From NCBI RefSeq assembly GCF_000768675.1, contig NZ_AVPI01000023.1, positions 1 through 64,000 of the forward strand: a stretch of DNA of 64,000 nt, given 5' to 3'. Shown piece by piece: positions 32,501-60,600 of the stretch. Each line of letters opens with the position of its first letter. Position 1 is the first letter of the stretch. Below the pieces are notes generated by a model. That model was not told the origin of the DNA. It did no database searches and worked only from the letters and a program-made list of their open reading frames with translations. Source of the stretch: Knoellia flava TL1. Its GTDB lineage: Bacteria > Actinomycetota > Actinomycetes > Actinomycetales > Dermatophilaceae. A program made the position numbers and the translations under genes.

Positions 32501-34631
32501 GGGCAGCTACGGCGGCATCATCCACGAGATCATCGAGGCGCGCGACGTCCGGATGGGCATGTTCGGGATGAGCAACCAGGTCTCGCACCACATCCCGTAC
32601 ATGTACAACTACACGGGCAAGCAGTACCGCACGGCCGAGAAGGTGCGCGAGATCCTGCGCCGCCTCTACGTCGGCAGCGAGATCGGCCAGGGCTACCCCG
32701 GCGACGAGGACAACGGCGAGCAGTCGGCCTGGAACACCCTCTCCTCGCTCGGCATCTACCCGCTCCAGGTCGGCTCGGCCCAGTGGGCCGTGGGTTCGCC
32801 GAAGTTCACGAAGATGACCGTCCACCGCACGCAGGGCGACCTCGTCGTCAACGCGCCGAACAACTCGGACGAGAACATCTACGTCCAGAAGGTCACCATC
32901 AACGGCGAGGGCCACAAGGACGTCTCGATCCCGCACAGCAAGATCGCGGGCGCGACGACGATCGACTTCGCCATGGGCTCCACGCCGTCGGACTACGGCA
33001 GCAAGCCCAACGCCGCTCCCCCGTCGCTCACCAAGGGGGACGCCAAGCCGGCTCCCCTGCGTGACGCCACGGGTCCGGGTCGCGGCACGGCGACGGCACC
33101 GGGTGCGGCCAACGCCGCGGCGCTCTTCGACAACAGCTCGACGACGTCGACGACGTTCGCCTCGGCGACGCCCACCGTCACCTACACCCTCTCGGGCATC
33201 GGCCAGCGCGCCACCTTCTACACCCTCACCAACGGGGCCGCCGCCGGCGAGCCCACCGCGTGGCGGGTCGAGGGCCAGCGCAACGGCAACTGGGAGACCA
33301 TCGACACCCGGAGCAACCAGGCCTTCACCTGGCGGACGCAGACGCGGCCGTTCAAGGTCGCCGCTCCGGGGACTTACACGGCATACCGGCTCGTCGTCAC
33401 GGCGAGCAACGGGACGCCGACCCTGTCGGAGGTCGAGTTCCTCACCGACGGCTCGTTCGCGGAGAACACACGCATCAAGGTGAGCCCGTCGACCGAGCTC
33501 GAGGCCGTCGAGGGACAGGCCGTGAGCGGCCCCGTCGCCACCTTCTCCGGCGGCAAGGGCACGAGCGCGGACGCCTACACCGCCACCATCGCGTGGGGTG
33601 ACGGCACGACCTCGACCGGCACCATCACCGCCGGCGAGCTCGGCTCCTACACCGTGCGCGGCGAGCACACCTACGCCGAGCCCGGCTACTACGAGACCGT
33701 CGTGACGGTCAAGGACGCCAAGGGCAGCGCGAGCGGCAGGGGCGGGGTGACGATCCACCAGGCCGTCGTGCCGTCCTACGCCTCCGGGTTCAACCTGGTC
33801 TGCATCGGCGACCCGGGCCAGGAGATCCCCTGCGACGGCGGCCAGGCCGGCGTCTCGCGTCCGGCCCTCGCCGAGGCGGGCGCGTCCCCGGGCCGGCTCC
33901 TCACGGTCCCGGGCAGCGACCTCCGGTTCTCGATGCCGGCGATCCCGGCCGGGCAGAAGGACAACGCCACGGGTGCGGGCCAGACCCTCCCCGTGACGCT
34001 GGCCCCGGGCGCGACCAAGCTGAGCCTCATCGGCACGGCGACGCAGAAGGACCAGGACACGACCGGGACGGTGACGTTCACGGACGGGACGAGCACGGCA
34101 TACAGGATCCAGTTCGGTGACTGGTGCGGCTCGGCGAAGTTCGGCAACACGATCGCGGTCGAGATGACCTCCCGGCTCAACGGCACGAGCACGGACGGCT
34201 GCCACCTCAAGCTGTTCGCGACCGCGCCGCTGACGATCCCGGCGGGCAAGACCGTCCAGTCGGTGACCCTGCCGACGCAGACGGGTGACCCGCGCACCGC
34301 CGGACGGATCCACGTGTTCTCGGTCGCCGACAACGGCACGCCGCTCACGGTCGCCCCCGCGACCGGCGCGACGGCCAAGGCCGGCACCGCGTCCACGGTG
34401 ACGCTCGGGACGGTCTCGGGCGGCGTGCCCGCCGAGGGCGGCTACACCGCACGCGTCGCGTGGGGTGACGGCAGCGCCACGACCGACGGAGTCGTCACCG
34501 TCGCGGCCGACGGGACCGCCACCCTGAGCGGCTCCCACACGTGGGCCTCGGCCGGGACCTACACGGTGCGGGTGCTCGTCGGCGACAGCCGCAGCGACAC
34601 CCTCGCCACGGTGACCGTCACGGTCACCTGA
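29550..34631 (+). CDS. Secreted GH92 alpha-mannosidase, multidomain
   Basis: This 1693-residue protein has a Tat/Sec-like signal (MRLTN..., cleavage near AVAA, residue 33). Order: discoidin-like domain (about 80-222); beta domain (230-400); GH92 N-terminal domain (about 410-660); (alpha/alpha)6 catalytic domain (about 680-1140). The last carries WDTYRTVWPAY (about 745), HEIIEARDV (about 990) and GDEDNGEQSAW (about 1050). Then follow a second discoidin-like region (about 1180-1300), a PKD domain (about 1310-1400), an unassigned domain (about 1407-1595) and a C-terminal Ig/PKD-like domain. GH92 enzymes are calcium-dependent exo-alpha-mannosidases acting on mannans or N-glycans. The ATG has a GGAGGAAA ribosome site. 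The neighbours lacI and manA fit mannose uptake. Confidence 0.93.
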   Translation: MRLTNAIPRGLTAGALALAVGTATAAGAVAATPPTADQAAAAAAPEGAAWSTSFENGQPQPLVSTVEVDESGPRQQNVTGGVPADGSLLGSVTGITASAENPPGEVASNLTDSNADTKWLAFATTGWVRYQLSAPKRALTWSLTSGNDAPERDPKDVTLRGSTDGTTWTDIDRRTGLAFASRGQKQTFTVTTPGDWSYYRLDVTANNGGPIVQLADWGLFGDVDSSEPEIAPMVSTVGSGPRSGFNIKSLVGWTGVKSLRYGGSHTAAGRGFAWNRLFDVDVPVGDRSRLTYKIFPDMVAGDLTYPSTYTAVDLRFTDGTFLSSLGAKDMHSTAASPNGQGVGKILYANQWNSVQIDLGPKAAGKTIDAILLGYDNTANPTKETIFGGFVDDIEVDPSPAALDRSSPTYAVDVRRGTNSSGSFSRGNNLPISAVPNGFTFFTPLTNANSQTWQYYWQAGNNAQNRPTLQGLGISHEPSPWMGDRNQMSVMPSITQGVPTGSASGRAIPFDHDDEVARPDHYRVHLDGGIIAETAPADHGGVWRFTFPESAPTGSLVVDTVDNNGSFTVDPATGTMTGWVDNGSGLSVGRSRMFVHGTFDRPAKAAGTAPNGHTGTRYATFDTTSDRDVELRIATSFISLDQAKRNADLELTGRSFNDVQGDAKAKWDERLSVVEVEGAKDDEIRTLYSNLYRLNLYPNSQFENTGTASAPRYQYASPVSPKSGSATATTTNAAIKDGKIYVNNGFWDTYRTVWPAYSLLYPEIAAEIADGFVQQYRDGGWVARWSSPGYADLMTGTSSDVSFADAFVKGVALPDKLGTYDAGLRNATVLPPSSGVGRKGLATSQFLGFTPDSTHESVSWGLEGMINDFGIGNQAAKLATDPSVPAARRATLQEESEYFLKRATDYTNHFDPKTGFLRVRQANGEFAPNFDPEVWGGGYTETNGWNFAFHAPQDGNGLANLLGGREAMAKKLDTFFTTPETGTKPGSYGGIIHEIIEARDVRMGMFGMSNQVSHHIPYMYNYTGKQYRTAEKVREILRRLYVGSEIGQGYPGDEDNGEQSAWNTLSSLGIYPLQVGSAQWAVGSPKFTKMTVHRTQGDLVVNAPNNSDENIYVQKVTINGEGHKDVSIPHSKIAGATTIDFAMGSTPSDYGSKPNAAPPSLTKGDAKPAPLRDATGPGRGTATAPGAANAAALFDNSSTTSTTFASATPTVTYTLSGIGQRATFYTLTNGAAAGEPTAWRVEGQRNGNWETIDTRSNQAFTWRTQTRPFKVAAPGTYTAYRLVVTASNGTPTLSEVEFLTDGSFAENTRIKVSPSTELEAVEGQAVSGPVATFSGGKGTSADAYTATIAWGDGTTSTGTITAGELGSYTVRGEHTYAEPGYYETVVTVKDAKGSASGRGGVTIHQAVVPSYASGFNLVCIGDPGQEIPCDGGQAGVSRPALAEAGASPGRLLTVPGSDLRFSMPAIPAGQKDNATGAGQTLPVTLAPGATKLSLIGTATQKDQDTTGTVTFTDGTSTAYRIQFGDWCGSAKFGNTIAVEMTSRLNGTSTDGCHLKLFATAPLTIPAGKTVQSVTLPTQTGDPRTAGRIHVFSVADNGTPLTVAPATGATAKAGTASTVTLGTVSGGVPAEGGYTARVAWGDGSATTDGVVTVAADGTATLSGSHTWASAGTYTVRVLVGDSRSDTLATVTVTVT

Positions 34632-34646
34632 AGCCGGTTACGCCGA

Positions 34647-34698
34647 GTGTCGGGGATCCGGGCCGAAACCCTCGCGGGTGGGCCCGGATCCCCGACAC
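34647..34698 (+). terminator. Perfect 18-bp hairpin after the GH92 gene
   Basis: GTGTCGGGGATCCGGGCC pairs exactly with 34681-34698 across a 16-nt loop, 15 bp after the GH92 stop. It is a likely terminator for the mannosidase transcript, without a clear T-run. Confidence 0.7.
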
Positions 34699-34714
34699 CG
34701 GAGCAGCCTGAAAA

Positions 34715-34763
34715 ACGCGTATGCCGCGTGCTCCCCCTGTACGGGAGCACGCGGCATACGCGT
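34715..34763 (-). terminator. 21-bp hairpin terminator of groEL, built from two GTATGCCG motifs
   Basis: Arms 34715-34735 and 34743-34763 are perfectly complementary (7-nt loop). On the minus strand the hairpin is followed by GCGTTTTTC, so it fits an intrinsic terminator of the groESL transcript. Each arm contains the recurring motif: GTATGCC at 34719 and GGCATAC at 34753. Confidence 0.85.
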
Positions 34764-34785
34764 TGGTGCGGGAGGAGCGACCGGC

Positions 34786-36420
<1,635 letters not shown>

Positions 36421-36479
36421 CTAGTCAGTGGACCGTCAGGGCAGCAGGCGTGCCGCCGCGGTGCCGTGGTGGTGATGCG

Positions 36480-36523
36480 CGTATGCCGTGGGCGCACCGT
36501 GGGAGGTGAGCCCACGGCATACG
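36480..36523 (-). repeat. Hairpin between groES and groEL made of two GTATGCCG motifs
   Basis: CGTATGCCGTGGGC (36480-36493) pairs perfectly with 36510-36523 across a 16-nt loop. It lies in the 146-bp intercistronic gap (36409-36554). No T-run follows, so it may be an mRNA processing or attenuation hairpin, or a paired copy of the genome-wide motif. Confidence 0.7.
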
Positions 36524-36554
36524 TGGTGGTTCAGGTGGTGAGCCGTGGGCTCAC

Positions 36555-36848
36555 TCAGCCAACGATGGCGAGGATGTCGCGGGCGCTCAGGATGAGGTAC
36601 TCCTGGCCGCCGTGCTTGACCTCGGTGCCGCCGTACTTGCTGTAGATGACGCGGTCGCCGACGGTGACGTCGAGCGGGACGCGGTTGCCGTTGTCGTCGA
36701 TGCGACCGGGGCCGACCGCGAGGACCTCGCCCTCCTGGGGCTTCTCCTTCGCGGTGTCCGGGATGACGAGACCGGACGCCGTGGTCTGCTCGGCCTCGAG
36801 CGACTTGATGACGATGCGGTCCTCGAGCGGCTTGATGGAAACCGACAC
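36555..36848 (-). CDS. groES: Co-chaperonin GroES
   Basis: The 97-residue protein begins (V)[14 protein letters not shown] and has the mobile-loop region ([17 protein letters not shown], about residues 18-34). It also has [10 protein letters not shown] and the C-terminal strand, all standard for GroES, the lid of the GroEL cage. The GTG at 36848 is chosen because GGAGGT lies 6 bp upstream; a longer in-frame reading would run into the CIRCE sites. It is first in the groES-groEL operon. Confidence 0.97.
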
Positions 36849-36958
36849 TGTGTGACCTCCCCTTTGGGATGAGTCGAAGGTGGACAAATGCAGTTCGTGC
36901 GCTGCCGGCTTGGTGGTCCGCTTCGCCGTCGCGGGGGTCGAGTCGGTCCGCCGTGCGC

Positions 36959-36983
36959 TGGCACTCACCGGGGGCGAGTGCCA
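36959..36983. promoter_or_regulatory. CIRCE operator 1 (HrcA site)
   Basis: TGGCACTC-N9-GAGTGCCA matches the CIRCE consensus (TTAGCACTC-N9-GAGTGCTAA) with exact arms. It lies 111 bp upstream of groES. Confidence 0.9.
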
Positions 36984-37006
36984 ATGAGCCAAATCTAGGT
37001 CTGCGC

Positions 37007-37031
37007 TGGCACTCGGTCAACTCGAGTGCCA
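37007..37031. promoter_or_regulatory. CIRCE operator 2 (HrcA site)
   Basis: A second TGGCACTC-N9-GAGTGCCA lies 23 bp beyond the first, so groESL is probably doubly repressed by HrcA. The rest of the gap to the GNAT gene (37032-37129) shows only a weak GAGGG ribosome site. Confidence 0.9.
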
Positions 37032-37129
37032 GAACTCGAGGACCGTGTTCGCCGAGGGCAGACGCGGGCCGCGGACGGCGCGGCCAAAGGCGGTTGCGGC
37101 GGCGCGAGGGTGAGCGCGAGGGTTCGGGC

Positions 37130-37948
37130 ATGGACGCACCCGACCCCGCCACCCTCCTCGCCGCCTACGACGCCCAGCTGCGCCGGGAGGCCGAGCTCCC
37201 GTCGGCGCTCACCGTCACGCCGTGCGGACCGCTGCTCCTCGCCACCTACCTCGGCGGCCGGGGGTTCATCACCTACCGCAGCCTGGACACCGAGGAGGGG
37301 CCCGCGACGGAGGACTCCGTGCGGGCGCTCGTGACCGCGGCGGTGGCCCACTTCCGGGAACTGCCGGAGATCCGCAAGGTCGAGTGGAAGAGCCGCGGCC
37401 ACGACCACGCGCCGGGCCTCCACGAGGCGCTGGAGGCCGCGCGATTCGAGCCCGACGAGACCGAGTCGGTCATGATCGGCGACGCCCGGATGCTCGCGGT
37501 CGACATCGACCTCCCCGAGGGCGTGCGGGTCCGGCAGGTCACCGACGAGGCGGACGTGCGGGCGATGCTCGCCATGCAGGCCGAGGTCTTCGGCGACGAC
37601 CCCGACGAGGCGGCGGCCCACGACGCGCAGGTGCTGCACCGGCTCGCGACACGCGACGACATGGAGATGTGGGTCGCCGAGGTCGACGGGGAGGTCGTGA
37701 GCGCCGGGCGCCTCGAGCCGGTCGACGGCACCGACTTCGCGGGCATCTGGGGTGGTGCGACCCGACCGGAGCACCGGGGGCGCGGCATCTACCGCGCCCT
37801 CACTGCCGCCCGGGCGCGCTCGGCCATCGCCCACGGCAAGCGGTGGATCAACAGCGACTCGACAGAGTTCTCCCGGCCGATCCTCGAGCGCTCGGGGCTG
37901 CTCAAGGTCACGACGACGACGCCGTGGGTCTGGAGCAGAGAGGCCTGA
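37130..37948 (+). CDS. GNAT-family N-acetyltransferase
   Basis: The 272-residue protein has a C-terminal GNAT fold (about residues 125-260): WVAEVDGEVVSAGRLE, then the acetyl-CoA loop ATRPEHRGRGIYRAL (about 212-226; RGRGxYR). The N-terminal half (1-120) looks like a second, degenerate GNAT-like domain. Substrate unknown; amines, small molecules and proteins are all possible. It is divergent from groES. Confidence 0.8.
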   Translation: MDAPDPATLLAAYDAQLRREAELPSALTVTPCGPLLLATYLGGRGFITYRSLDTEEGPATEDSVRALVTAAVAHFRELPEIRKVEWKSRGHDHAPGLHEALEAARFEPDETESVMIGDARMLAVDIDLPEGVRVRQVTDEADVRAMLAMQAEVFGDDPDEAAAHDAQVLHRLATRDDMEMWVAEVDGEVVSAGRLEPVDGTDFAGIWGGATRPEHRGRGIYRALTAARARSAIAHGKRWINSDSTEFSRPILERSGLLKVTTTTPWVWSREA

Positions 37949-59113: not shown

Positions 59114-59154
59114 CCGGTATGCCGTCCACGCACCTTGCGCGGACGGCATACCGG
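59114..59154. terminator. Hairpin made of two GTATGCCG motifs after phoH
   Basis: CCGGTATGCCGTCC pairs perfectly (14 bp, 13-nt loop) with 59141-59154. It lies 22 bp beyond the phoH stop in the 261-bp gap. Both arms contain the nonamer GTATGCCGT, and no T-run follows. Confidence 0.65.
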
Positions 59155-59175: not shown

Positions 59176-60600
59176 TCAGGCGAGCCCGTCCTCGGACTCG
59201 AGGAGGTCGGTGACGAGGGCCGCGATCGGGCTGCGCTCGCTGCGCGTCAGGGTGACGTGGGCGAAGAGCGGGTGACCCTTGAGCTTCTCGATGACGGCGG
59301 CGACACCGTCGTGGCGGCCGACGCGCAGGTTGTCGCGCTGCGCGACGTCGTGGGTCATGACGACCTTCGAGTTCTGGCCGATGCGCGAGAGCACGGTGAG
59401 CAGGACGTTGCGCTCGAGCGACTGCGCCTCGTCGACGATGACGAAGGCGTCATGGAGCGAGCGACCCCGGATGTGGGTGAGCGGCAGGACCTCGAGCATC
59501 CCGCGGTCGAGGACCTCCTCGACGACCTCGCGCGAGACGAGGGCGGAGAGCGTGTCGAAGACCGCCTGGCCCCACGGGTTCATCTTCTCCTGCTCGGAGC
59601 CGGGCAGGTAGCCGAGCTCCTGGCCGCCGACGGCGTAGAGCGGGCGGAAGACGACGACCTTGCGCTGCTGGCGCCGCTCCATGACCGCCTCGAGGCCGGC
59701 GCAGAGCGCGAGCGCGGACTTGCCGGTGCCGGCACGGCCGCCGAGGCTCACGATGCCGATGTCGGGGTCGAGGAGGATGTCGAGCGCGATCCGCTGCTCG
59801 GCGCTGCGGCCGTGGAGGCCGAAGGCGTCGCGGTCGCCCTTGACGAGGCGCACCTGCTTGTCGGCGCCGACCCGACCGAGGCCGCTGCCGCGCGGGGACA
59901 GGAGCTTGAGGCCGGTGTGGCACGGCAGCTCGGCAGCTCCGAGGTGCTCGAGGCGGCCGTACTCGTAGAGGTGGTCCATCTCCTCGGTCGTCACCTCGAC
60001 CTCGGACATGCCGGTCCAGCCGGAGTCGACGGCGAGCTCGGCGCGGTACTCCTCGGCCTCCATGCCGCAGGCCGACGCCTTGACCCGCATCGGCAGGTCC
60101 TTGCTGACGATCGTCACCGCGCAGCCCTCGTTGGCGAGGTTCTTGGCGACCGAGAGGATGCGGGTGTCGTTGTCGCCGAGGCGGAAGCCGGCCGGCAGCG
60201 ACGACGGGTCGGTGTGGTTGAGCTCGACCCGCAGGGTGCCGCCGGCCTCGCCGACCGGGACGGGTGCGTCGAGCCGGCCGGCCTGGATGCGCAGGTCGTC
60301 GAGCAGGCGGAGCGCGGTCCGGGCGAAGTAGCCCAGCTCCGGGTGGTGCCGCTTGGCCTCGAGCTCGGTGACGACGACGACGGGCAGCACGACCTCGTGC
60401 TCCTTGAAGCGCAGGAGGGCCCGCGGGTCGGACAGGAGGACCGAGGTGTCGAGGACGTAGGTCCTCAGACCGGGCTCCCCCACCGAGGCCGCCGAAGGAG
60501 CAGTGGTGGCCGTGGCGGCTGTGGTCGCGCGCTTGCGCTGCCGGGGGCTCCCGGCGGTGGTCGTCGGGGCGGAGGCGGTCGAACGCGGGGTCGTGGCCAC
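59176..60600 (-). CDS. PIN-PhoH protein (PhoH2 type)
   Basis: The 474-residue protein has a Ser/Thr/Ala-rich tail (1-42) and a PIN nuclease domain (about 46-180; [12 protein letters not shown] with acidic residues). A PhoH RNA helicase/ATPase domain follows, with P-loop [10 protein letters not shown] (about 285-294) and DEAQSL (about 393). PhoH2 proteins in actinobacteria are sequence-specific RNA unwinding and cleaving enzymes. The ATG at 60600 gives the natural N-terminus. Its 3' end is marked by the motif hairpin. Confidence 0.92.

Follow-up and report, generated by a model that had tools for sequence, protein, structure and literature searches.

The soil actinobacterium Knoellia carries a strict octamer, GTATGCCG, often with T as the next base, which is kept at fixed places in the genome, occurs in lineage-specific dialects among relatives, and is scarce in foreign DNA. 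Based on sequence analysis, here it is proposed that this octamer probably serves Knoellia and much of the Dermatophilaceae as a DNA uptake sequence, and that its inverted pairs would double as terminators. The first-pass annotation had taken a single inverted motif pair at the end of groEL as support for the uptake-sequence idea; beyond that pair, the abundance of the motif, its conservation in place, its dialects, and its scarcity in genomic islands suggest that uptake is the best explanation.

Abundance and distribution of the octamer

The heptamer GTATGCC is present in 50 copies in the window (the whole stretch of 64,000 nucleotides analyzed), from 1652 to 63899 and on both strands, compared with 1.58 expected from shuffles (sd 1.29), with 39 copies in called genes and 11 between genes. 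The 3.56-Mb Knoellia genome has 2,577 copies (1281 + 1296) and keeps the octamer at about 0.7 copies per kb; such a short, strict motif is thus extremely over-represented throughout the genome, as are the DNA uptake sequences (DUS) and uptake signal sequences (USS). The most enriched 8-, 9-, and 10-mers of an 864-kb sample, obtained with no prior choice, are all parts of this motif, GTATGCC being followed by G in 99% of cases and then by T in 57%. Octamers with one mismatch are at background level (478 vs. 518), so the motif is strict. Genic copies mostly read Tyr-Ala (TAT GCC) or, reversed, Ala-Tyr (GCA TAC), and 48% of the TAT codons in the 864-kb sample belong to the motif. Motif density according to our own simple gene caller is 1.54/kb between genes vs. 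0.61/kb within genes; about 70% of the copies are genic, more than 90% are unpaired, and the flanks of the copies are unrelated to each other.

With six deserts of more than 7 kb set aside, the copies are spaced more evenly than random (CV of 0.82 vs. 0.90-1.12). The deserts are low in GC (0.62-0.68 vs. 0.72 in the window), and their genes resemble IS3-type transposases, a serine recombinase, and glycosyltransferases, as judged by eye from the translations. Similarly, 5-kb windows below 68% GC have a motif density of 0.25/kb vs. 0.77/kb elsewhere. The motif is, as in DUS/USS systems, scarce in what appears to be recently acquired DNA, its foreign origin being deduced from low GC together with mobile and surface-sugar genes.

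The octamer size, its spread over the genome, its scarcity in islands, and its lineage-specific sequences would also fit a Chi-like recombination signal, by comparison with the Chi sites of RecBCD/AddAB, which would act inside the cell by favoring the incorporation of tagged DNA or repair, and not as a surface tag. However, Chi and KOPS usually show a strand skew along the replication arm, whereas the octamer is balanced between strands in 8 of 8 segments of 60-300 kb each, which speaks against a polarity of the Chi or KOPS type. Being recruited into inverted hairpin pairs is also not a known trait of Chi, and this explanation is considered unlikely.

Conservation in place and dialects among relatives

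Across nine Knoellia genomes, 489 of 637 aligned motif copies in the ComEC region are intact (77%), compared with 22% for octamers in general, 20% for octamers lying up to about 30 bp away, 26% for same-composition words, and 29% for other TAT/ATA octamers; this is a single locus with non-independent genome pairs, the contrast being large all the same. The aligned Knoellia DNA is about 77-85% identical in the pairs printed. At this locus, the copies are kept in place beyond their surroundings, as described for DUS/USS.

The family holding Knoellia, Phycicoccus, Intrasporangium, Ornithinimicrobium, and Dermacoccus is taken here to be the GTDB family Dermatophilaceae, and GTATGCC is well above control in over half of its sampled genera. 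In 22-kb loci, the motif is present in Phycicoccus elongatus, Humibacillus, Terrabacter, Intrasporangium oryzae, and Ornithinimicrobium cavernae, and absent from those of Dermacoccus abyssi and Intrasporangium flavum. Genus and family codes given below (g17, f19, etc.) are handles, save where a named record matched. A one-base dialect, GGATGCCG, is found in place of GTATGCCG in genera g17 and g26, while genus g44 is mixed and has GGATGCCG alongside GTATGCCG; GGATGCCG is also raised in one of two genomes of genus g2. The same dialect is also found in the majority of the genomes sampled from f19, another family in this order (G108, G124, G139, G179, and others), with up to about 2,450 copies per strand (counted as GKATGCCG), and some members of f19 are without it. 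In genera g37 and g38, GTATGCC is replaced by an unrelated nonamer, CGAAGGGGG, which is dispersed at 650-985 copies per strand in G044, G045, G080, and G081 (L058-L061, L107-L110), from genera without GTATGCC. Because Janibacter indicus (L167) has five CGAAGGGGG copies in 12 kb, this lineage is probably Janibacter. Lineage-specific dialects, a further trait of DUS/USS, are represented by GTATGCCG, GGATGCCG, and the mixed genus g44, with CGAAGGGGG as a replacement.

Other enriched words were recorded in single lineages. These include GTACGCCG in g23/g40, GTACGGCG in G075, and GTATGCGG in g20, which are kept as candidate dialects only, since GTACG words are common in several other actinobacteria too. 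Phycicoccus sp. Go_SlDig_bin_253 (L162) has more copies of GAATGCCG (14) than of GTATGCCG (8) in 22 kb, possibly as another one-base dialect or as a mixed genome. In Hamadaea tsunoensis (L215), the palindromic octamer GCGTACGC is about nine-fold enriched in 22 kb and is perhaps a HIP1-like motif.

The motif labels are placed non-randomly on the ComEC tree, which is a gene tree with a midpoint root. GTATGCCG is found on either side of the first split, two changes are required to account for the three GATG genomes, and the CGAAGGGGG genomes cluster with a support of 99/86.

Abundant motifs such as the cyanobacterial HIP1 exist, and non-palindromic sites of 7-8 bp are typical of some methylation and defense systems, so the octamer could in principle be bound or modified by a nucleoid-associated protein, a methyltransferase, or a defense system. 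This is quite improbable, as such a site would be a less simple account of the 77% position-specific conservation, the terminator-like pairs, and the mixed one-base dialects, and restriction sites are usually avoided, not enriched.

Inverted motif pairs and the probable groEL terminator

The groEL gene (34786..36408, minus strand; NCBIfam GroEL) is followed, 21 bp downstream of its stop, by a perfect hairpin at 34714..34764 on the minus strand, identified by direct sequence read, RNA fold, and terminator scan. Its left stem arm, AACGCGTATGCCGCGTGCTCCC (34714-34735), and its right arm (34743-34764) enclose a 7-nt loop, CCTGTAC (34736-34742). The left arm contains GTATGCC on the plus strand (34719..34725), where the next G completes the octamer (34719-34726), and the right arm contains it on the minus strand (34753..34759; full octamer 34752-34759). 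AAAAA at 34711..34715 on the plus strand corresponds to TTTTT after the stem in the groEL direction (minus strand), its last two bases also pairing within the full stem. The facing motif copies, the 7-nt loop, the perfect hairpin, and the five Ts described in the first-pass annotation were all recovered by direct reading; the 21-bp stem given there is the same hairpin minus its outermost A-T pair, the full perfect stem being 22 bp.

The RNA fold of this hairpin has -48.8 kcal/mol (z = -9.8), and no known RNA family came near its gathering score at the site. A terminator scan of 34400-37200 gave five hits vs. 0.8 expected in shuffles, the groEL hairpin being one of them and by far the longest. 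Among the motif hairpins inspected, the anatomy of an intrinsic terminator (a GC-rich hairpin with a T-run just past a gene) is clear in this one only. Such anatomy and position fit the earlier proposal that the motif pair forms the groEL terminator, and the hairpin is likely a tag pair serving as an intrinsic terminator. Because most other motif hairpins have no T-run, it would be the clearest terminator among them, and the effect of the others is putative.

Two more inverted motif pairs are found in the window. One forms a hairpin without a T-run between groES and groEL (36480..36523, minus strand), with -37.2 kcal/mol and a z of -7.2 for the surrounding 66 nt; being inside the groES-groEL operon, it could tune the GroES/GroEL ratio. 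The other forms a hairpin at 59114..59154 (minus strand), 21 bp past the stop of the minus-strand gene 59176-60600. A strong hairpin that does not contain the motif (z of -7.8, with -54 kcal/mol for 66 nt) also lies at about 34646-34699, between groEL and the converging plus-strand gene of a GH92 glycosidase, which ends at 34631; this hairpin is likely the end of the GH92 transcript. Upstream of groES are two CIRCE-like operators (GCACTC-N9-GAGTGC) at 36958-36984 and 37006-37032, as expected for HrcA control.

Counted over the whole genome with a gap of 6-30, convergent pairs number 54 and divergent inverted pairs 31, with 11.7 of each expected from independent placement, and there are 13 tandem pairs vs. 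23.3 expected. The first-pass annotation had staked its reading on inverted pairs being more common than independent placement of the motif predicts, and this holds, with 85 inverted pairs vs. 23 expected (inverted vs. tandem p = 4e-14). Taken together, 33 motif-bearing genomes have 1278 convergent, 714 divergent, and 416 tandem pairs vs. 316, 316, and 631 expected, respectively, with expectations calculated from rounded genome sizes. The divergent pairs were dropped as a separate puzzle, GGCATAC..GTATGCC also being an inverted repeat that forms hairpins; since both inverted orders are able to form hairpins, tandem pairs are the proper control. An origin of the excess as a by-product of intergenic clustering was ruled out, as tandem pairs are not enriched, the exceptions being G002 (Knoellia remsis; 108 vs. 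39 expected), G025, and G040, where they are in excess. The surplus of inverted, potentially hairpin-forming pairs is a further likeness to DUS/USS. Close inverted pairs hold at most about 7% of the copies in this genome. Of the 62 perfect hairpins found between genes in the sample, 11 contain the motif, most of them without a T-run, and among the motif hairpins inspected there a clear T-run is found at groEL only. The use of pairs depends on the lineage, G050 having 207 convergent pairs. In G025, convergent pairs are nearly absent (3) vs. 32 divergent, the reverse of other genomes, and a short motif array with a 16-bp period is found at G028:C4:85761-85831.

The explanation by ordinary dispersed terminators or REP-like repeats, in which the hairpins came first and the single copies are their remains, would suit the textbook terminator form of the groEL hairpin and the motif-bearing share of intergenic hairpins; however, it is contradicted by conserved, unpaired, and mostly genic copies with unrelated flanks, by the share of TAT codons within the motif, and by sites that persist while their flanks diverge, making it very improbable.

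Competence genes and proposed mechanism

The Knoellia genome G000 encodes ComEA, ComEC, a Tad ATPase, and TadE-like proteins (Tad locus); this is the competence machinery associated with DUS/USS as gene presence, which does not show competence. No PilB-level ATPase is among the matches listed for G000, so a type IVa pilus was discarded as receptor carrier, and a ComP-like receptor is unlikely because the best T2SSE match is at the Tad/CpaF level, not at the PilB level. ComEC was ruled out as a motif-tracking gene, being nearly universal with or without the motif. The Tad locus by itself does not follow the motif either, since genera lacking the motif also have Tad-type ATPases. No motif-tracking gene has thus emerged so far, which is a point against the uptake reading.

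The motif is interpreted as an uptake tag because it has the same set of traits described for the neisserial DUS, in addition to the ComEA/ComEC/Tad locus, and it is provisionally assigned to the DUS/USS kind. In the proposed mechanism, a surface DNA-binding competence protein, which may be ComEA or a protein located at or close to the Tad pilus, would prefer free DNA bearing the octamer, and the tagged DNA would pass through ComEA/ComEC and recombine into the chromosome. Across many generations, biased uptake would maintain and spread the tag, and some intergenic tag pairs may have become terminators, as in Neisseria. A more specific version is favored with somewhat less assurance, namely a monoderm system with an independent tag and a receptor tied to the Tad pilus/ComEA and not to a type IVa pilus that bears ComP; its dialects would extend over two families of actinobacteria, one lineage having switched fully to the unrelated tag CGAAGGGGG.

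A literature search limited to open-access papers found neither uptake or transformation data for the Dermatophilaceae nor an earlier description of an uptake sequence in actinobacteria. If the uptake preference holds, the octamer would represent an uptake-tag system in Gram-positive bacteria, none having been found reported in that literature. It would have a separate actinobacterial origin, and its dialects, mixed-dialect genus, losses, and full replacement would be natural replicates bearing on whether uptake tags accumulate by drive or by selection. Natural competence would also be predicted in many soil and wastewater bacteria (Knoellia, Terrabacter, Intrasporangium, Ornithinimicrobium, and Tetrasphaera-like lineages), and octamer-labelled donor DNA would be a practical handle for transforming them.

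Comparison with known uptake systems

To our knowledge, self-recognition uptake tags are established in two Gram-negative families only, the DUS receptor of Neisseria being ComP. The USS of the Pasteurellaceae has a short strict core with about one copy per 1-2 kb, in genic and intergenic positions and in inverted pairs. The Knoellia octamer is similar in its short strict core, density, genic and intergenic copies, and inverted pairs; however, its sequence is unrelated, the cell envelope and pilus are different, and near-miss copies are not in excess in Knoellia.

Among actinobacteria, the Tad/Flp-dependent natural transformation of Micrococcus luteus needs comEA, comEC, and tad genes, a combination that is frequent in the group according to the authors (PMC4322843), and Knoellia G000 is likewise an actinobacterium with ComEA, ComEC, and a Tad locus. 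An uptake sequence is not mentioned in the searched passages of PMC4322843 and PMC6370729.

In the Neisseriaceae, DUS occur in thousands of copies and in dialects differing by one to a few bases; one genome has two dialects, there are relatives without DUS, and inverted pairs are putative terminators (PMC3630211). Neisserial DUS sites are exactly conserved, have slightly more divergent flanks, and are absent from recently acquired genes (PMC2397512). Degenerate copies are notable in that family (21% more in one genome; PMC3630211), unlike in Knoellia, where octamers with one mismatch are not in excess, which is counted against an uptake function. The Knoellia octamer differs further in its unrelated sequence, DUS dialects sharing a CTG core, and in its monoderm host, where a ComP-type IVa pilus is not expected, as no PilB-level ATPase is among the listed matches. 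In one lineage of the Dermatophilaceae, the octamer has also been exchanged entirely for a motif of unrelated sequence, and the putative system of the family is known here from the sequence pattern. The octamer nevertheless resembles the neisserial DUS in its abundance, dialects, two-dialect genus, motif-free relatives, inverted pairs, and site conservation.
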